Origin: Streptosporangiaceae bacterium
GTDB taxonomy: Bacteria; Actinomycetota; Actinomycetes; Streptosporangiales; Streptosporangiaceae
DNA length: 5,778 bases
NCBI GenBank assembly: GCA_030040475.1
Contig: JASHTQ010000099.1
Location: forward strand, 1 to 5,778
Direction: 5' to 3'
Part shown: positions 1-5,778 of the stretch, piece by piece
Layout of the letters: each line of letters opens with the position of its first letter
How positions within the stretch are numbered: the first letter of the stretch is position 1
Translations under genes and position numbers: made by a program
The notes under the pieces: model-generated
The model's database searches: none
The model's input: only the letters and a program-made list of their open reading frames with translations
Told to the model about the DNA's origin: nothing

Positions 1-1313
1 TGGCCAGGGTCGCGCTGACCATCCTCGTCTACGACAAGACCAGGTCGGCGCTGCTCGCCGCGATCACGTTCGTGGTCAGCATCGTGCCGACGTTCGTCGG
101 CGGGGTGACGCTTGCCTGGCTCGCCGACAGGTACCCGCGCCGCCAGGTGATGATCGTCTGCGACGTCCTGCGCTGCGGGCTCGTGCTGATCATGGCCCTG
201 CCCAGGGTGCCGCTCGCCGCCCTGGTGGCGCTGCTGTTCGTGGTGACGCTGGCCGGGGCGCCGTTCACCTCCGCCCGTGCCGCGGTCTTCCCCGACGTGC
301 TGTCCGGCGACAAGTACGTGATGGGCACCGCGGTGGCGCTGACCACCTATCAGTTCGCGCAGGTCCTCGGGTTCGGGATCGGCGGCACCGTGGTCGGCTT
401 CTTCGGCGTCCGGACGTCCCTTCTCGCCGACGCCGTGACGTTCGCGGGCTCGGCGCTCATCCTGCGCGCCTGGGTGCGGCCGCGGCCCGCGCCGGGATCT
501 GCCGCGGGCGGCGGTACCGGCCCGGCCTCCCGGCTGGCCGGCATCGCCAGCGGGGCCCGGCTCGTCTTCGCCCGCCCGGCGCTGTGCCTGCCGATGCTGT
601 TCGGCTGGCTCGCCGCGTTCTACAACGCCCCCGAGGGCGTGGTGACCCCGCTGGCCGCCGATCTCGGCGGCGGCGCGGCCGCCGTCGGCGTGATCCTGGC
701 CGCCAACGCGCTCGGCGAGACCGTGGGCGCGATCGTCTTCAGCCGGTTCGTGGCCGCCTCGACCAGGCTGCGGTTCATGGGCCCGCTGGCCGTCGGCAGC
801 TGTGCCGTGCTGCTGCTGTTCGCCTTGCGGCCCGGCCTTTTCGCCTCGCTGGCGATCCTGGCCGCGGCCGGCCTGTTCGCCTGCTTCCAACTGGTCGCCA
901 ACGCCGCCTTCGTGACCGCGGCGCCGCAGGAACAGCGCAGCCAGGCCTTCGGGCTGGCGCAGGGCGGGATGAGCCTGGGTCAGGGAGCGGTCATGATCGC
1001 CGCGGGAGCCGCGGCACAGCACGTGGCCCCGGCGCGGGTCATCACCGTGTGCGGCGCCGTCGGCACCGTCATGGCGCTCGCGATCGCTATCGCCTGGGCC
1101 CGCTACCGCAACGGCCAGGCGAGCGGGGGCCGCCACGCAGGCCAGGGCCGCCGCGCGGATCCAGGCACCCGCGCGGATCAAGGTACCAGCGCGGATCCAG
1201 GCACCCGCGCGGATCAAGACGGCAATTCCGATCAAGACCACGGTGCGGATCAGGTACCGCGCCCGGGTCACGATCGCGATGGGGATCTGGGTCGCCAGGC
1301 AGACGTGCGCTGA
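1..1313 (+). CDS. MFS transporter, MFS_3-like drug/metabolite exporter (5' end missing)
   Basis: The reading frame is open from base 3 of the window and ends at TGA 1311-1313, giving 436 residues with no true start here. The first visible residues (ARVALTILVYDKT) look like the end of helix 1, so roughly 25-35 N-terminal residues are missing. The loop after helix 2 carries the MFS motif A-like segment GGVTLAWLADRYPRR (fragment residues 33-47). It is followed by the alternating hydrophobic helices expected of a 12-helix permease, with a central loop near residues 158-180. This is the actinobacterial EntS/MFS_3 style of proton-coupled exporter in the cytoplasmic membrane; the substrate cannot be inferred. 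Helix 12 ends near residue 368, and an unusual hydrophilic tail of about 68 residues follows, with hexapeptide repeats. The gene converges on the RDDNWT mini-gene array with an 18-nt gap and no obvious hairpin terminator. Family call is confident; function is not. Confidence 0.9.
   Translation, partial: ARVALTILVYDKTRSALLAAITFVVSIVPTFVGGVTLAWLADRYPRRQVMIVCDVLRCGLVLIMALPRVPLAALVALLFVVTLAGAPFTSARAAVFPDVLSGDKYVMGTAVALTTYQFAQVLGFGIGGTVVGFFGVRTSLLADAVTFAGSALILRAWVRPRPAPGSAAGGGTGPASRLAGIASGARLVFARPALCLPMLFGWLAAFYNAPEGVVTPLAADLGGGAAAVGVILAANALGETVGAIVFSRFVAASTRLRFMGPLAVGSCAVLLLFALRPGLFASLAILAAAGLFACFQLVANAAFVTAAPQEQRSQAFGLAQGGMSLGQGAVMIAAGAAAQHVAPARVITVCGAVGTVMALAIAIAWARYRNGQASGGRHAGQGRRADPGTRADQGTSADPGTRADQDGNSDQDHGADQVPRPGHDRDGDLGRQADVR
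1152..1259 (+). repeat. 18-bp tandem repeat encoding an [RS]ADPGT/RADQGT hexapeptide tail
   Basis: Six consecutive 18-bp units start at 1152, 1170, 1188, 1206, 1224 and 1242. They encode RADPGT, RADQGT, SADPGT, RADQDG, NSDQDH and GADQVP. Units 1 and 3 (GATCCAGGCACC type) and units 2 and 4 (GATCAAG type) alternate, so there is a 36-bp higher-order period that suggests duplication of a two-unit block. Units 5 and 6 have decayed. The repeat lies in the cytoplasmic C-terminal tail of the MFS transporter and keeps the frame. It is probably a disordered acidic/basic tail; no binding role can be assigned. Confidence 0.85.
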
Positions 1314-1331
1314 CCAGGGCGTCCTCCACGA

Positions 1332-1358
1332 TCAGGTCCAGTTGTCGTCGCGCTGCAT
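1332..1358 (-). CDS. Mini-gene 1d: octapeptide MQRDDNWT
   Basis: This is the promoter-distal member of a four-copy array read leftward. ATG is at 1358-1356, followed by codons for Q-R-D-D-N-W-T and TGA at 1334-1332. A consensus SD, AAGGAG on the minus strand (1372-1367), lies 8 nt before the ATG. The RDDNWT codons and stop are identical at base level to the other three copies, and similarity is lost directly after the stop. Only residue 2 differs (Q here, R and L in the next two copies), through a change of the middle base of a CNG codon. The ORF lacks any secretion signal and is far below usual gene-calling limits. The stop lies 18 nt from the convergent MFS stop. Function unknown. Confidence 0.7.
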   Translation of the reverse strand: MQRDDNWT

Positions 1359-1402
1359 GGGCGTGGCTCCTTACTCGGGGTCGGCTGGCGGGGTAGCGGG
1401 TC

Positions 1403-1429
1403 TCAGGTCCAGTTGTCGTCGCGCCGCAT
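1403..1429 (-). CDS. Mini-gene 1c: octapeptide MRRDDNWT
   Basis: ATG at 1429-1427 is followed by R-R-D-D-N-W-T and TGA at 1405-1403. The SD GAGGAG (1443-1438, minus strand) is 8 nt upstream of the start, the same spacing as in its neighbours. The stretch from the SD to the stop is nearly identical to copies 1b and 1d, including GAGCCACGC between SD and start, while the DNA between copies varies in sequence and length (starts of successive units are 71, 84 and 75 bp apart). Conservation restricted to SD plus ORF argues for translation. The peptide would be cytoplasmic unless exported by an unknown route. Confidence 0.7.
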   Translation of the reverse strand: MRRDDNWT

Positions 1430-1486
1430 CTGCGTGGCTCCTCTCCTGGTTGCCGGGTCGGGTTTGAGGCGGGGGATGGCGGGCCG

Positions 1487-1513
1487 TCAGGTCCAGTTGT
1501 CGTCGCGCAGCAT
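1487..1513 (-). CDS. Mini-gene 1b: octapeptide MLRDDNWT
   Basis: ATG at 1513-1511 is followed by L-R-D-D-N-W-T and TGA at 1489-1487. The SD AAGGAG (1527-1522, minus strand) is 8 nt before the start. Residue 2 (CTG) is the variable position, CAG or CGG in the sister copies, and the remaining six codons are invariant. Downstream of the stop it shares a short GACGGCC-CGCC stretch with copy 1a, the only similarity outside SD and ORF, which probably reflects recent duplication. Function unknown; see the module-level finding. Confidence 0.72.
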   Translation of the reverse strand: MLRDDNWT

Positions 1514-1561
1514 CTGCGTGGCTCCTTCCGAAGGTCGGGAACGGCGGGGATGGCGGGGCCG

Positions 1562-1585
1562 TCAGGTCCAGTTGTCGTCGCGCAC
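1562..1585 (-). CDS. Mini-gene 1a: heptapeptide (M)RDDNWT, promoter-proximal
   Basis: GTG at 1585-1583 is followed by R-D-D-N-W-T and TGA at 1564-1562. A strong SD, GGAGG within AGGGAGGA (minus strand 1600-1593), lies 8 nt before the GTG. This is the first copy downstream of the divergent control region. It differs from the other three by a GTG start and by lacking the extra residue 2, so its product is one residue shorter. The first copy of the second array (3536-3513) also uses GTG and also has a GGAGG-type SD, a parallel that suggests the arrangement is functional. The leader just upstream contains a 12-bp perfect palindrome (1615-1626). Confidence 0.72.
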   Translation of the reverse strand: MRDDNWT

Positions 1586-1614
1586 CGGCTGATCCTCCCT
1601 TCCTCTCTCTGTGT

Positions 1615-1626
1615 ATTCGATCGAAT
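1615..1626. promoter_or_regulatory. 12-bp palindrome ATTCGATCGAAT, possible operator
   Basis: A perfect 12-bp dyad, extendable to 16 bp (G-T-...-T-C) with one mismatched pair, sits 29 nt upstream of the first mini-gene start on the minus strand. It lies inside a locally AT-rich stretch where promoter elements would be expected. It could be an operator or part of the leader RNA. No regulator gene is present in the window. Confidence 0.35.
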
Positions 1627-1671
1627 TCCCTTAGTAACTAACCTAACGCCAGACTAAGCGCAGAGGTTCAG

Positions 1672-1685
1672 CCGGAGCTACCGCC
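1672..1685 (+). promoter_or_regulatory. 14-bp element CCGGAGCTACCGCC shared by both modules (copy 1)
   Basis: This exact 14-mer recurs in inverted orientation at 3609-3622 in the control region of the second module. Here it is 86 nt upstream of the first RDDNWT start codon; there it is 72 nt upstream of the first RTGSWS start codon. Identity stops at both ends of the 14-mer. It contains a CGG-N5-CCG dyad in the reverse reading, so a dimeric regulator could bind in either orientation. This is a candidate only. Confidence 0.4.
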
Positions 1686-1868
1686 GCGCATGCCGTGCTC
1701 CCTTCCTGCCGCGCCGCGCTCGAGGTCGGAATCGCGTCTTCGGTCAGGCGTTGCGGCTACCAATTGTGGCCCGCAATTGCGTTGGAGGAGTACTTTGTAC
1801 CTAATGTCGGGAATAATTCTGTTCTGCTGTGACCCGGTGTCGTCTCTGTCCAGCTCTGGGGCTGATGG

Positions 1869-1897
1869 GTGACCTGAGCCAGCAGAGAAGGTATGCT
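1869..1897 (+). promoter_or_regulatory. Possible promoter for the first cyclase gene
   Basis: GTGACC (1869-1874, 4/6 to TTGACA) is followed by a 17-nt spacer and TATGCT (1892-1897, 4/6 to TATAAT and fitting TANNNT). Transcription would start near 1904 and leave a leader of roughly 110 nt before the ATG at 2017. The match is plausible for a housekeeping sigma factor but was found by eye in a long region. Confidence 0.35.
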
Positions 1898-2016
1898 TCT
1901 ATCGTTGAGTAGCCGGGTTCTCACGTTTTGCACCCGCAAAGGCTGGGGATGCGAGACAATGATGGCGCGCCCTTGCCATGTGTCTGGCGGGGCGGTGGAT
2001 GGTGGAGGAGGCACTG

Positions 2017-3399
2017 ATGCGCCTTAGCCGTCGCCTGTTGCGGCGGTCGGCAGCCGTCAGTGACTGGGCGATTTGGCGGCTGCCCCGTTGGCTCATTGCC
2101 TTCCTGCTTGCCGTCGTCGTCGCCGACCTGGCCGCCATCGCGGTCGCGGCGGCTGTCACCACGATCACCCCGGGCAACCTGGCCTTGTTCGGCCTCCTGC
2201 TCGGCTGCACGGCGGTAGCCGTCGAGCTGAGCAGGAAGACCGGTGAGCAAGGCGGCATGATGAAGGACGTCCATGGCGTCTGGGAGCTGCCCGTCGCCAT
2301 CCTGCTGCCTCCGCTGTACGCGCTGATCGTTCCGATCGCCAGGGTTGCGCTTACCCAGCTGCGGGTGCGCCATGCGCCGCCGCACCGCAGGGTCTTCACC
2401 GCCGCCGCCGTCGGCCTGTCCTACGGCGCCGCGTCGCTGACCTTCCACGGCCTGGCAGGCGCCGTCGGCGTGAAGGCGGCGGCTGTTCCTGGCACCCTCG
2501 GCCACGACACCGTGTGGACCCTGCTCGTGGTGCTGAGCGCCCTGATCAAGCTGGTGCTGAACAAGGCCATGATCATGACGGCGATCAAGGGCACCAGCCC
2601 GTCGGCGAGCCTCCGCCAGACGCAGCTGACCAGGGAGTCGATCTACAACGACATGGCCGAGCTGTGCATCGGCGTGCTGGTCACCTACGGCGTCGCCGGG
2701 AACCCGCTGCTCGTCCTCGCCGCGCTGCCGGTCGTCACGCTGCTGCAGCGGTCGCTGCGGCACGCTCAGCTCGTCACCGACTCGCGGGCGGACTCCAAGA
2801 CCGGCCTGCTGAACGCGGCGACGTGGGAGCGCGAGGCGACCGCGGAAGTGGCCCGGGCGGTCAGGACCAGGTCGCCGCTCGCGATCGCGCTGCTCGACAT
2901 CGACAAGTTCAAGGTGATCAACGACACCTACGGTCACCTCGTCGGCGACCAGGTGCTCAAGGAGATCGCCCGCACGCTGAACGGCATGCTGCGGGACTAC
3001 GACGTCGCCGGGAGGTTCGGCGGCGAGGAGTTCTCGCTGCTGCTGCCGCAGACAAGGGCGGTCGACGCGTTCCGCATCGCCGAGCGTGTGCGCGCTAACA
3101 TCGCGGCCCTGAGCGTCATCGCTCCCGGCGAGACCGGCGGGGAGCGGGTTCAGGTCACGGTGTCGATCGGGGTGGCCGCGCTCGACAGCGGCAGCCAGCG
3201 CGAGCTGACTCAGCTGATGGCGGCGGCCGACGCGGCGCTGTACCGGGCCAAGGCCAGCGGCCGTGACCAGGTGCAGATGATCAGCACGACAAGGGGCCTG
3301 AGCGCGGTCAGCGGCCCCGGTGCGGGGGGCGCGGCGCGCGGCGCCAACGGCGGCGGCACCGACGTGCCGAGTGCCTTCCGCCGGGCACACAGCTCCTGA
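2017..3399 (+). CDS. Membrane-bound diguanylate cyclase (GGDEF protein), module 1
   Basis: Predicted to make the second messenger c-di-GMP from two GTP at the inner face of the cytoplasmic membrane. The 460-residue product has a basic N-terminus (residues 1-25), about six or seven membrane helices (roughly 26-47, 54-71, 91-113, 127-147, 166-183 and 214-243, the last possibly two) and a C-terminal GGDEF domain from D259 (DSKTGLLN) to about 425. Catalytic features are intact: LLDIDKFKVIND (292-303) with metal-binding Asp, GGEEF at 335-339, and RDYD at 326-329 five residues before it, the usual I-site for product inhibition. The last 30 residues are Gly/Ala-rich. ATG 2017 is chosen because GGAGGAGG (2004-2011) lies 5 nt upstream; an in-frame ATG at 1978 lacks an SD. 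The membrane part likely senses something, unknown. It is divergent from the RDDNWT array and a tandem paralogue of the gene at 3828. Confidence 0.93.
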   Translation: MRLSRRLLRRSAAVSDWAIWRLPRWLIAFLLAVVVADLAAIAVAAAVTTITPGNLALFGLLLGCTAVAVELSRKTGEQGGMMKDVHGVWELPVAILLPPLYALIVPIARVALTQLRVRHAPPHRRVFTAAAVGLSYGAASLTFHGLAGAVGVKAAAVPGTLGHDTVWTLLVVLSALIKLVLNKAMIMTAIKGTSPSASLRQTQLTRESIYNDMAELCIGVLVTYGVAGNPLLVLAALPVVTLLQRSLRHAQLVTDSRADSKTGLLNAATWEREATAEVARAVRTRSPLAIALLDIDKFKVINDTYGHLVGDQVLKEIARTLNGMLRDYDVAGRFGGEEFSLLLPQTRAVDAFRIAERVRANIAALSVIAPGETGGERVQVTVSIGVAALDSGSQRELTQLMAAADAALYRAKASGRDQVQMISTTRGLSAVSGPGAGGAARGANGGGTDVPSAFRRAHSS

Positions 3400-3434
3400 C
3401 CGGATCGATCGAGGACCCCTGGCTGGGAATCGCT

Positions 3435-3458
3435 CTAGGACCAGCTACCGGTACGCAT
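3435..3458 (-). CDS. Mini-gene 2b: heptapeptide MRTGSWS
   Basis: ATG at 3458-3456 is followed by R-T-G-S-W-S and TAG at 3437-3435. The SD AAGGA (minus strand 3470-3466) is 7 nt upstream. Compared with copy 2a the ORF differs at three bases only: ATG versus GTG start, GGT versus GGC for Gly, and TAG versus TAA stop. Every change preserves the peptide and the gene signals, the pattern expected under selection on translation. The gene converges on the first cyclase with a 35-nt gap and no clear terminator. Function unknown. Confidence 0.75.
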   Translation of the reverse strand: MRTGSWS

Positions 3459-3512
3459 GGCGCGTTCCTTCCTGTCTGGATGCTCTCGCTGCCTGACTCG
3501 CATGGTGATCGC

Positions 3513-3536
3513 TTAGGACCAGCTGCCGGTACGCAC
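3513..3536 (-). CDS. Mini-gene 2a: heptapeptide (M)RTGSWS, promoter-proximal
   Basis: GTG at 3536-3534 is followed by R-T-G-S-W-S and TAA at 3515-3513. GGGAGGAG (minus strand 3551-3544) gives a strong SD 7 nt before the start. It is the first copy downstream of the divergent control region and, like the first RDDNWT copy, uses GTG. The two copies lie 78 bp apart and share little outside SD and ORF. The layout R-x-x-[NS]-W-[ST]-stop matches the RDDNWT family, so the two arrays appear to encode variants of one peptide class. Confidence 0.75.
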   Translation of the reverse strand: MRTGSWS

Positions 3537-3827
3537 GGTGGCGCTCCTCCCTGTCGTCGTGCGGTGAGAGTCGAGCCGCACCAAAGAGATGATGATAGGA
3601 AACCCGGAGGCGGTAGCTCCGGTAGGTCCGGTATTTGGGACTAGTCTGTAGCCCAACCGGCACGGAAGGTAATCATACGTAAGCATAGAGTAACACAGGC
3701 TGACAAATCAACCTCGGGGAGTAGCAGAATTTTGACGTTCGGCAGTCTCATTCGCCGCAATCCGGGACACTAGGGGATACGTGCTCGCGCCCATCGAGGT
3801 TCAGGGTGCCGTCGCCAAGGAGATGCC
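3537..3827. promoter_or_regulatory. Divergent control region between RTGSWS array and second cyclase
   Basis: No gene is seen. The stretch from about 3580 to 3735 is AT-rich relative to the genes. It contains the shared 14-bp element (3609-3622), a direct repeat TCCGGTAG/TCCGGTAT next to it (3618-3633), and weak promoter-like hexamers. Leftward, TTGATT (minus strand 3711-3706), 18 nt, TATGCT (3687-3682), or an isolated TATCAT (3597-3592). Rightward, CTGACA (3700-3705), 19 nt, CAGAAT (3725-3730), or TTGACG (3732-3737) without a good -10. The two -35 candidates abut, which would fit divergent control. Apart from the 14-mer I see little similarity to the control region of module 1. Confidence 0.5.
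3609..3622 (-). promoter_or_regulatory. 14-bp element CCGGAGCTACCGCC (copy 2, inverted)
   Basis: This is the minus-strand copy of the element at 1672-1685, exact over 14 bases. It lies 72 nt upstream of the first RTGSWS start codon. Relative to its mini-gene array it is in the opposite orientation to copy 1. It is flanked by TCCGGTA repeats, which may extend a binding site. Confidence 0.4.
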
Positions 3828-5192
3828 GTGGACGCCATTCGCCGGATGTCGGGGCGAACCGTGGGCTCCTGGCAGATCTGGCAGCTCCCGCGCCGGCTTG
3901 CCGTCTTCGTGCTCGTCGTGGTGCTCGCCGACGCCGTCGTGTTCGCGGCCGCGGCGAGTCACCTAACCATACGCGCACACGACCTCGAGCTGTTCGCCGC
4001 GCTGCTGGCCTGCGGCGTGGCCACGGTGGAGCTGACCAGGCGCGCGGGGGAGAACCTCGGCTTCGTCAAGGACGTGCACGCGATCTGGGAACTGCCGGTC
4101 GCCTTGCTGCTGCCGCTGGCGTACGCGCCGGTGGTGCCGGTCGTCCGCTTCGCCCTGACCCAGTGGCGGGTCAAGCGGGTGCCGGCGTACCGGCGCGCGT
4201 TCAGCGCCGCCGCCATCGGGCTGAGCTACGTCGCCGCCGGCCTCGTCTTCCACGGCCTGCTCCGGCTGACGCACGGGTCCGCCGGGTCCCCGGGGCGCCA
4301 CGCGCTGGTCTGGATGGCGTTGGTGGCGCTCAGCGCGGCCGTGCAGTGGGTCGTCAACCAGTCCCTGGTGCTGACCGCGATCAAGGGCTCCGATCCGAGC
4401 GTGAGCCTGCGCGCGGTGCAGTTCGCCAGGGAGCCGATGTACAACGACGTGAGCGAGCTCTGCGTCGCGGTCCTCGTCACGTTCTGCGTGGCGAGCAGCG
4501 TGATCGCGGTGGCCTTCGCGTTCCCGTTCGTCACCTTGCTGCAGCGTTCCCTGCGCCACACCCAGCTGCTCAAGGACGCGCGGGCCGACTCGAAGACCGG
4601 CCTGCTGAACGCGGCGACCTGGGAGTACGAGGCGACCGCCGAGGTTGCCAGGGCGGTGCGGACCAGATCGCCGCTCGCCATCGGCCTGCTCGACATCGAC
4701 AAGTTCAAGGTGATCAACGACACCTACGGTCACCTGGTCGGCGACCAGGTGCTGAAGGAGATCGCGCACACGCTCAGCACCATGCTGCGCGACTACGACG
4801 TGGCGGGCCGGTTCGGCGGCGAGGAGTTCGCGCTGCTGCTGCCGCAGACCAGGGCGGTGGACGCGTTCCGCATCGCCGAGCGGGTGCGCTCGGTCATCGC
4901 GGGCCTGAGCATCATCGCCGCGGGCACGAACGGCGGCGAGCGGGTGCACGTCACCGTGTCGATCGGCGTGGCCGCGCTCGACAGCGGCAGCCAGCGCGAG
5001 TTCACCGACCTGATGGCCGCCGCCGACGCGGCCCTGTACCGCGCCAAGGACTGCGGCCGGGACCAGGTGCAGATGATCAGCACGACCAGGGGCCTGAGCG
5101 CGGCAAGCGGCGCCTCCCGCCCGGCTGCGGCCCCGGTAACCGACGAGCTCACCGAAGCGCCCGGTGACCTCCGCCGCGTGCTGACGTCCTGA
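3828..5192 (+). CDS. Membrane-bound diguanylate cyclase (GGDEF protein), module 2
   Basis: This is a 454-residue paralogue of the upstream cyclase with the same plan: basic N-terminus with RTVGSW at 10-15, membrane helices at roughly 24-44, 52-69, 89-111, 124-144, 158-177 and 209-238, and a GGDEF domain from D254. LLDIDKFKVIND (287-298), the I-site RDYD (321-324) and GGEEF (330-334) are intact, so it should be an active, product-inhibited c-di-GMP synthase. By hand count the GGDEF domains differ at about 18 of 172 residues, while the membrane halves are far more diverged except for patches such as KDVH-WELPVA and YND-ELC, and the C-terminal tails are unrelated. The GTG start at 3828 has AAGGAG (3817-3822) 5 nt upstream; the in-frame ATG at 3846 has none. 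It is divergent from the RTGSWS pair and its stop abuts that of the convergent lipoprotein gene. Confidence 0.93.
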   Translation: MDAIRRMSGRTVGSWQIWQLPRRLAVFVLVVVLADAVVFAAAASHLTIRAHDLELFAALLACGVATVELTRRAGENLGFVKDVHAIWELPVALLLPLAYAPVVPVVRFALTQWRVKRVPAYRRAFSAAAIGLSYVAAGLVFHGLLRLTHGSAGSPGRHALVWMALVALSAAVQWVVNQSLVLTAIKGSDPSVSLRAVQFAREPMYNDVSELCVAVLVTFCVASSVIAVAFAFPFVTLLQRSLRHTQLLKDARADSKTGLLNAATWEYEATAEVARAVRTRSPLAIGLLDIDKFKVINDTYGHLVGDQVLKEIAHTLSTMLRDYDVAGRFGGEEFALLLPQTRAVDAFRIAERVRSVIAGLSIIAAGTNGGERVHVTVSIGVAALDSGSQREFTDLMAAADAALYRAKDCGRDQVQMISTTRGLSAASGASRPAAAPVTDELTEAPGDLRRVLTS

Positions 5193-5606
5193 TCAGCCGG
5201 ACGTGCCCGTCGCCGTCGGAGTGGGCACCGGCGGCAGCACCGCGATGATGGCGGCGCCGCCCTCGTGGCACTGCGACGCGATCCCGGTGCTGAGCAGCTG
5301 GGGCGTGGAGTACCCCTGGCAGGTCCAGCCGCTCACGTTGACCGGCGCGCCGCCGCCGTTCCCCGGCACCTGCCCGTCCCTCACCTTGGCCGCGTACTCG
5401 TTCTCGACCCGCATGGCCACGCCGCAGTTCACGGTGCCCTTGGAGACCTTGATCAGGACCGGCACGTCGACCGCGGTCCGGGTGCTGCCGCAGGTGGCCC
5501 CCGCCGCCGCGCCGCCGGACTGGGCGCCCGACGAGCACCCTGCCCCGCCCGCCAGCAGCCCCGCCACGCACACGAGCAGCCCCGCTCGCCCCGCCGCTCC
5601 GGGCAT
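5193..5606 (-). CDS. Small Cys-rich lipoprotein, uncharacterised
   Basis: The 137-residue product begins MPGAAGRAGLLV, has a hydrophobic segment (8-23) and a probable lipobox ending at C24 (LLAGGAGC; Gly at -3 is atypical), then a Ser/Gly/Ala linker and a compact region with four cysteines at 39, 61, 96 and 113, likely two disulfides. Recognisable pieces are VSKGTVNCGVAMRVENEY (55-71) and VSGWTCQGY (91-99), followed by a Pro/Thr tail. I recall similar small exported proteins in actinobacteria but no function. ATG 5606 is chosen because it puts the signal sequence at the N-terminus. The frame stays open upstream to ATG 5744 and GTG 5696, but those would add a long charged leader; no start has an ideal SD (nearest GGAG 13 nt upstream). 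The product should be anchored outside the membrane. The link to the cyclases is only proximity. Confidence 0.7.
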   Translation of the reverse strand: MPGAAGRAGLLVCVAGLLAGGAGCSSGAQSGGAAAGATCGSTRTAVDVPVLIKVSKGTVNCGVAMRVENEYAAKVRDGQVPGNGGGAPVNVSGWTCQGYSTPQLLSTGIASQCHEGGAAIIAVLPPVPTPTATGTSG

Positions 5607-5778
5607 CCGCGCGCCGCGGCTCCGCTGGTCCCGTGAGCGCTGTCCCGCTCCACCCTCAAACCCTATGCCCGTCCCGTCCCGTTCAGCCCTGCCCACGCCG
5701 CTCCGCCACCTAGTTCCCGATTCCGGCCGGCCCTCCTGTTTCATGATCGCGGGCAGAAACGGTCGGTATTCGACCCGA
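5607..5778 (-). other. Upstream region of the lipoprotein gene, window end
   Basis: The lipoprotein frame stays open to 5744, but the sequence is a Gly/Arg-rich translation without domain character, so I treat it as noncoding leader and promoter. A TAGGGT hexamer (minus strand, about 5664-5659) could be a -10 box, without a good -35. Nothing else is recognised. Confidence 0.3.

Follow-up and report, generated by a model that had tools for sequence, protein, structure and literature searches.

Arrays of very small genes beside membrane c-di-GMP enzymes of actinobacteria point to an undescribed peptide-sensing system

Results

We have analysed arrays of mini-genes, which encode peptides of 5-9 residues as whole open reading frames (ORFs), next to two membrane diguanylate cyclases in a stretch of DNA from a Streptosporangiaceae bacterium (GCA_030040475.1, contig JASHTQ010000099.1, positions 1-5,778, forward strand); these 5,778 nt are called the window here. 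Taken together with their relatives in other genomes, such arrays beside cyclic di-GMP (c-di-GMP) enzymes point to a peptide-sensing system that appears to be undescribed. The comparisons strongly support the mini-genes as real genes and, about as strongly as comparative genomics allows, also their link to membrane c-di-GMP enzymes. The mini-genes would form a further class of genes, 6-10 codons long with the stop, which mostly escape annotation.

The first-pass annotation of the window had placed four RDDNWT and two RTGSWS mini-genes on the minus strand, divergent from two membrane cyclases. All six are present at those places, each with the Shine-Dalgarno sequence (SD), start codon and in-frame stop that had been described. 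The features are the following:

3..1313, plus strand: major facilitator superfamily (MFS) transporter (MFS_1, E 3e-24), a candidate exporter; its 5' end lies outside the window and its 3' end abuts array 1
1332..1358, minus strand: mini-gene MQRDDNWT
1403..1429, minus strand: mini-gene MRRDDNWT
1487..1513, minus strand: mini-gene MLRDDNWT
1562..1585, minus strand: mini-gene VRDDNWT
1668..1691, minus strand: possible seventh mini-gene MRGGSSG, with SD AGGAAGGGAG, perhaps degenerate and without comparative support
2017..3399, plus strand: membrane diguanylate cyclase 1, a multi-transmembrane (TM) sensor domain followed by GGDEF (GGEEF; PF00990, E 2e-43)
3435..3458, minus strand: mini-gene MRTGSWS
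3513..3536, minus strand: mini-gene VRTGSWS
3828..5192, plus strand: membrane diguanylate cyclase 2, with a GTG start, membrane domain at about residues 15-253 and GGDEF at about 254-416 (AlphaFold2 models)

The likely start of cyclase 1 is 2017, behind SD GGAGGAGG; the longest ORF begins at 1978. Both cyclases carry GGEEF and score 148.4 and 146.6 bits against PF00990 (gathering score 23.8), which classes them as diguanylate cyclases. Their alignment bears out the earlier description of diverged membrane domains (54% identity) beside near-identical GGDEF domains (89%). Around the start of the GGDEF region the DNA of the two genes is 86% identical (2721-3020 versus 4517-4816), with the membrane parts far apart, and gene conversion may be the source of this high identity. 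The two RTGSWS copies differ at three spots (ATG/GTG, GGT/GGC, TAG/TAA), each of which keeps the reading.

Linkage of mini-genes to membrane-domain sites

A search of actinobacterial genomes for such ORFs opposite the cyclase homologues had been proposed, and it recovers them. A first scan of genome contigs, with the membrane domain as the query, found 42 loci, and our main count covers 88 non-redundant sites, all reached through this domain and excluding loci fetched by the peptide pattern. The strict form, an SD-led [M/V]R mini-gene upstream, is found on the opposite strand at 48 of the 88 sites and on the same strand at 3, with 0 and 0 inside the gene; Markov shuffles give 23 in 1760. When the pattern is shifted one base out of frame it matches at 2 of 88 sites, which is chance level. 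Tandem copies occur at 17, 19 or 23 of the sites by three definitions and in none of the 1760 shuffles. A looser definition that accepts any SD-led mini-ORF gives 61 sites opposite, 12 on the same strand, 17 and 3 inside the gene, and 221 of 1760 shuffles. Split by origin, the first-scan loci have 23/43 opposite and 1/43 on the same strand, further paralogues 23/43 and 2/43, and the window 2/2; the 18 genomes searched for paralogues were picked by hand after the first scan, and most already had a mini-gene at one locus. With pattern-fetched loci included, a wider set of 113 sites gives 73 opposite and 3 on the same strand.

The order that holds the Jiangella genomes (the order of G058) was chosen because the pattern had matched there, but the sites within it come from the membrane-domain search. 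The family is present in 18 of its 22 genomes, at 31 places, 30 of them with sufficient upstream DNA. A mini-gene stands on the opposite strand at 27 of these 30 and on the same strand at none; two of the three misses are in one genome, and an internal stop interrupts the copy at the third.

We also scanned with a pattern that ignores neighbours (SD-RTG-CGN-3 codons-TGG-codon-TRA). Across 18 genomes it gave 33 rows, and all 26 that start with ATG (25 mini-genes) adjoin a cyclase of the family, as do 2 of the 7 that start with GTG. A genome pattern one base shorter, as an out-of-frame control, gave 3 matches. In an even sample of 394 genomes of the class, 43 had a match, and the reversed pattern gave 9 as a control. 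By hand count 115 places are listed, a subset of the matches per genome, and 93 of these lie beside membrane c-di-GMP enzymes, 91 beside a cyclase of the window's family (family 1) and 2 beside a membrane GGDEF-EAL protein. Every multi-copy array among the 115 adjoins a membrane c-di-GMP enzyme. The other listed places are 2 at contig ends and 20 elsewhere, all 20 single and beside neither the family nor any GGDEF; at one contig end (G103) the divergent side has no partner and the other side is beyond the contig, and the second is G226:C29. A hexapeptide pattern (MR, three codons, W, stop) matched in 16 of 296 genomes of the phylum, always singly and never beside the membrane domain or GGDEF, compared with 7 for its reversed control (hand count).

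Evidence that the mini-genes are coding

In 25 arrays of the Jiangella order, taken without any condition on residues 3 onward, we counted 28 synonymous and 14 nonsynonymous codon variants (28/42), compared with 15.8% synonymous expected (p 2e-13). Five of the 14 come from a single overlapping ORF, VRIAGTE, which we think is spurious. The stop is TGA in 115 of 119 cases, and the serine codon of MRGNSWD is AGC in 12 copies and TCC in 10. A wider set of 47 arrays has 52 synonymous to 11 nonsynonymous changes, as well as 6 stop-to-stop changes; this ratio is partly conditioned on the likeness of the peptides, and the 25-array count was therefore made without that condition. Third-position changes are 48 of 75 in the 47-array set and 31 of 61 in the Jiangella-order set. 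The 11 nonsynonymous changes are confined to residue 2 (6) and the last residue (5), and one Amycolatopsis array reads MSDKGW, MADKGW, VTDKGW, MRDKGW, MSDKGW and MTDKGW. Since the residue beside Met varies, the C-terminal piece, for example RDDNWT or DKGW, would be the kept and specific part.

The peptides and their relation to the sensor

The usual peptide in relatives has the form M-R-x(2-4)-[W/F/Y]-x(0-1), led by an SD and on the opposite strand. Examples are MRTVGWA, MRNEWS (four copies), MRTTNWT, MRGISWI, MRSVQWA (two), RNKNW (six, one with an extra Q), MRNKDF and MRGRDY. The shape R-x-x-[NS]-W-[ST] drawn from the window fits its own six, but W is not obligatory in Amycolatopsis and related genomes (MRNKDF, MRNRES, MRGKDQ and others). 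The largest array has 13 copies (MRDTTWS type, L154), and the array-rich genomes L154-L169 match Jiangella and Phytoactinopolyspora. At six loci (L081, L082, L084, L088, L092, L097) a constant second hexapeptide, MRDTW[T/V], stands behind a variable first mini-gene. In L093 one ORF, MRGQNWTLRGQNW, apparently fuses two peptide units, some 167 nt upstream of the match to the membrane domain.

That the peptide is private to the array holds almost throughout beyond the window too, as among 32 arrays from 8 genomes no two share a lead peptide (hand count). Of the tandem cyclases in L003, one is preceded by MRGEQWT three times and the other by MRTTMWT twice. The first of three cyclases in L035 has MRGKEWR and MCGKEWR and the second MRGHSWT twice; there is no mini-gene at the third, nor at the second cyclase of L032. 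A short simple repeat of the mini-gene end (ATGGCGCTGA-like) follows the array in L035 at about 4500-4560.

Over 53 sites, and corrected for GGDEF difference, the peptide and membrane-domain differences have a partial r of 0.125, reached in 7 of 500 permutations. The reverse comparison, with GGDEF difference after removing membrane-domain difference, gave 0.012 (218 of 500). These values weakly suggest that peptide divergence tracks membrane-domain divergence beyond GGDEF divergence, and the effect is small.

A second receptor family

The divergent layout holds for family 1 but is not general, as a second receptor family, mostly GGDEF-EAL, carries mini-genes co-directionally. The first clue was two single scan matches upstream of membrane GGDEF-EAL proteins on the same strand. 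Mini-genes ending in W or W-x sit just upstream of the receptor gene, on its strand, at 6/12, 9/13 and 8/30 loci, or 16 of 42 unique loci (hand count), compared with 1 of 42 for an upstream mini-gene on the opposite strand; one further opposite-strand ORF overlaps a gene in L256. Within the 30-locus set none was found at 9 of the 18 closer loci or at the 12 more distant ones (L296-L307). Examples are MRGNDWL (G213, G711), arrays of 7 GATWG, an array of 9 or 10 THWG, and MSAHEWL in G112, beside a family 2 protein closest to Micromonospora. The two families share a homologous membrane domain (hhalign 95.7%, E 9e-9; also 96.7%).

The MFS neighbour and the sensor domain

The window had been described as a two-part module; the array and the cyclase stand, but the description is incomplete, as the MFS gene at 3-1313 also belongs to it. 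This gene scores as MFS_1 and is weakly EntS-like, under the NCBIfam cut-offs. Relatives placed in the same way, on the cyclase strand with the 3' end towards the array, occur in Streptosporangiaceae, Pseudonocardia, Amycolatopsis, Jiangella-type and other loci. An MFS relative is seen at 38 of 85 sites, where available flanks limit detection; in the Jiangella order 25 of 31 loci have one. Mini-genes are present at 30 of the 38 sites with the MFS gene and at 24 of the 47 without (Fisher p 0.012). MFS relatives also stand beside 5 of 25 family 2 loci, one in the opposite orientation. On a plasmid of Pseudonocardia sp. DSM 110487 (L202) the far side holds a prolyl oligopeptidase family gene (3297-5210), with MRNHNW three times in between.

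The membrane domain was folded by itself, since a PDB search with the whole cyclase matched only GGDEF-containing entries among the best 50 listed. The predicted fold may resemble the S components of energy-coupling factor (ECF) transporters. In the model, K/R-rich loops and the conserved residues E68, D82, W87, R114, R122 and N177 lie on the cytosolic half.

Other observations

A small gene follows cyclase 2 (5193-5744, minus strand); it looks lipoprotein-like by eye, has no Pfam match, and has relatives in the same place in L001 and L004-L010. The closest proteins to cyclase 2 in a set of 5.8 billion are three at 94-95% identity, and one at 75% is labelled Streptosporangiaceae. In L183 (1552-4629) one open frame of about 1030 codons joins a membrane-GGDEF part (GGDEF match) to an ABC-F-type ATPase (two ABC_tran matches), which we take to be EttA-like; the same fusion was assigned by length in L018 (4851-7955). 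Finally, a scan of the divergent region for the BldD box, using what we take to be its consensus, found matches with at most one mismatch at 18 of 113 sites, compared with 29 of 565 shuffles and 2 of 90 gene bodies. This is a weak enrichment, and c-di-GMP feedback on the locus is possible. Such sites lie upstream of the cyclase in L003, L002, L010, L151 and others.

Discussion

We think it fairly probable that the mini-gene peptides are cognate ligands of the neighbouring membrane c-di-GMP sensor and that the MFS protein probably exports them. The mini-genes would be translated into peptides of 5-9 residues, each meant for the sensor domain of the adjacent enzyme, and tandem copies, each with its own ribosome-binding site, would raise the dose. 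After probable export by the flanking MFS transporter, the peptide could act on the sensor from outside, or it could act from the cytosol after re-import or with no export, as the conserved residues suggest. Its binding would alter GGDEF dimerisation and hence c-di-GMP, and where one cell has several paralogues, their differing peptides would provide private channels. This reading builds on frame conservation, linkage to two receptor families, homologous but opposite in layout, linkage to the MFS gene and distinct lead peptides per array, all of which are seen in the sequences; translation in vivo, binding, export, and the direction and sign of the effect are what we infer from them. The matched peptide-sensor pairs suggested by the first-pass annotation thus gain from the linkage, the private peptides and the weak co-divergence, and the role of ligand or modulator remains its conjectural part.

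Homologous cyclase loci without such ORFs, which had been named as evidence against the proposal, do exist, and because 40 of the 88 sites are without a strict mini-gene the pairing is frequent, not universal. A more ambitious version, which we hold only tentatively, is widespread actinobacterial cell-cell signalling by leaderless peptides of 5-9 residues, exported by dedicated MFS proteins, as ligands of multi-TM, S-component-like c-di-GMP sensors, private to each paralogue.

It is also conceivable, although we judge it unlikely, that the peptide is purely intracellular. It would bind the cytosolic side of the sensor and report translation or the state of the array promoter, and the MFS protein would clear the peptide or do something else. 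The leaderless peptides, the cytosolic placing of the K/R-rich loops and conserved residues, and the 47 of 85 sites where no MFS gene was found would suit this. However, the MFS gene recurs as a neighbour in both receptor families, and a private peptide per paralogue is easier to explain by cell-cell signalling.

Another proposal is a minimal product resembling a ribosomally synthesised and post-translationally modified peptide (RiPP), an MR leader plus core that is modified and exported by the adjoining MFS protein, with the c-di-GMP enzyme controlling production. We found no P450 heme motif, in the form that we take to be its consensus, in open frames of at least 200 aa of the window and L001-L042 (43 records; the search was for P450s alone). 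The proposal would also leave unexplained why there is one array per cyclase paralogue and why the peptides diverge along with the sensor domain. The nearest gene in size and shape is nevertheless a RiPP precursor, that of the biarylitides, with 18 bp, five residues and a two-residue leader (PMC13417212); all told we consider the RiPP proposal improbable.

The mini-genes could instead be cis-acting translation or RNA elements that work by being translated, through mRNA decay, ribosome capture or attenuation, and not through the peptide. Family 2 mini-genes have the right position, since they share the strand of the regulated gene and probably lie in its leader. Family 1 mini-genes are read from the other strand and, in the window, point towards the convergent MFS gene or towards cyclase 1. 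Additionally, residues besides W are conserved through synonymous change, the peptides vary between paralogues and hardly within arrays, and an Rfam scan of the window gave no convincing match, only two chance miRNA matches far under their gathering scores. This leaves such elements very improbable. Repeated DNA sites (operators or iterons) would suit the fairly regular array spacing, mostly 60-80 nt, but are disfavoured by codon-level conservation with its third-position changes, by SD, start and stop in the counted copies and by the out-of-frame control at chance, so that we regard them as practically negligible.

Many membrane c-di-GMP enzymes have no known input. Here a candidate ligand is encoded beside its receptor, and the question of input is therefore open to direct test. 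Streptomyces development is under the control of c-di-GMP through BldD (PMC6205966), and a peptide input could bear on morphology and metabolite production in related antibiotic producers (relatives occur in Amycolatopsis, Nonomuraea and, for family 2, Micromonospora). If the proposal is true, some of the smallest genes known would directly encode signals.

Comparison with known systems

In line with the first-pass annotation, which knew of no such system, we recognised no description of mini-gene arrays beside c-di-GMP enzymes in the open-licence PMC literature, as judged by titles and abstract openings. There is some likeness to the RRNPP and Rgg-SHP systems of Firmicutes, where a short peptide gene also stands beside its own receptor and the pairs diverge; export and re-import are conceivable here too. 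Those systems use a soluble regulator as receptor, and their peptide is released from a longer precursor. Here, by contrast, the divergent partner is a membrane GGDEF protein instead of a soluble TPR/HTH receptor, and whole ORFs of 5-9 residues stand in arrays with no longer precursor. Leader-peptide attenuators or upstream ORFs fit the position of family 2 but not that of family 1. The biarylitide gene bytA is likewise an actinobacterial gene of about six codons with a two-residue leader (MR in MRYVH), but it lies beside a P450 (PMC13417212), whereas the mini-genes are often tandem and adjoin a c-di-GMP enzyme, with no P450 motif nearby in the 43 records.

Other c-di-GMP enzymes are switched by diffusible signals and so share a signal-set output, but their ligands are small metabolites on dCACHE or PAS domains (PMC8846402). 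This 2022 census gives two receptors, for AI-2 and for BDSF, as those with direct evidence for a quorum-sensing molecule. Its main text uses the word peptide once, for possible PBP-clan ligands, and it lists MASE1 with the putative sensory domains that have no discernible purpose. MASE-type domains, such as MASE9 and the MASE1 of DgcE, which is targeted by the GTPase RdcA (PMC6510439), are similar in that a membrane-embedded domain precedes GGDEF and the direct ligand is unknown. The window cyclases differ from MASE9 (PF20972), as cyclase 1 scores 17.3 against a gathering score of 24.3 and cyclase 2 has no match, so that neither is a member by that test. Family 2 has its counterparts, by architecture alone, in the Streptomyces proteins RmdB (6TM-GGDEF-EAL) and HdgA (6TM-HD-GYP) (PMC6205966).

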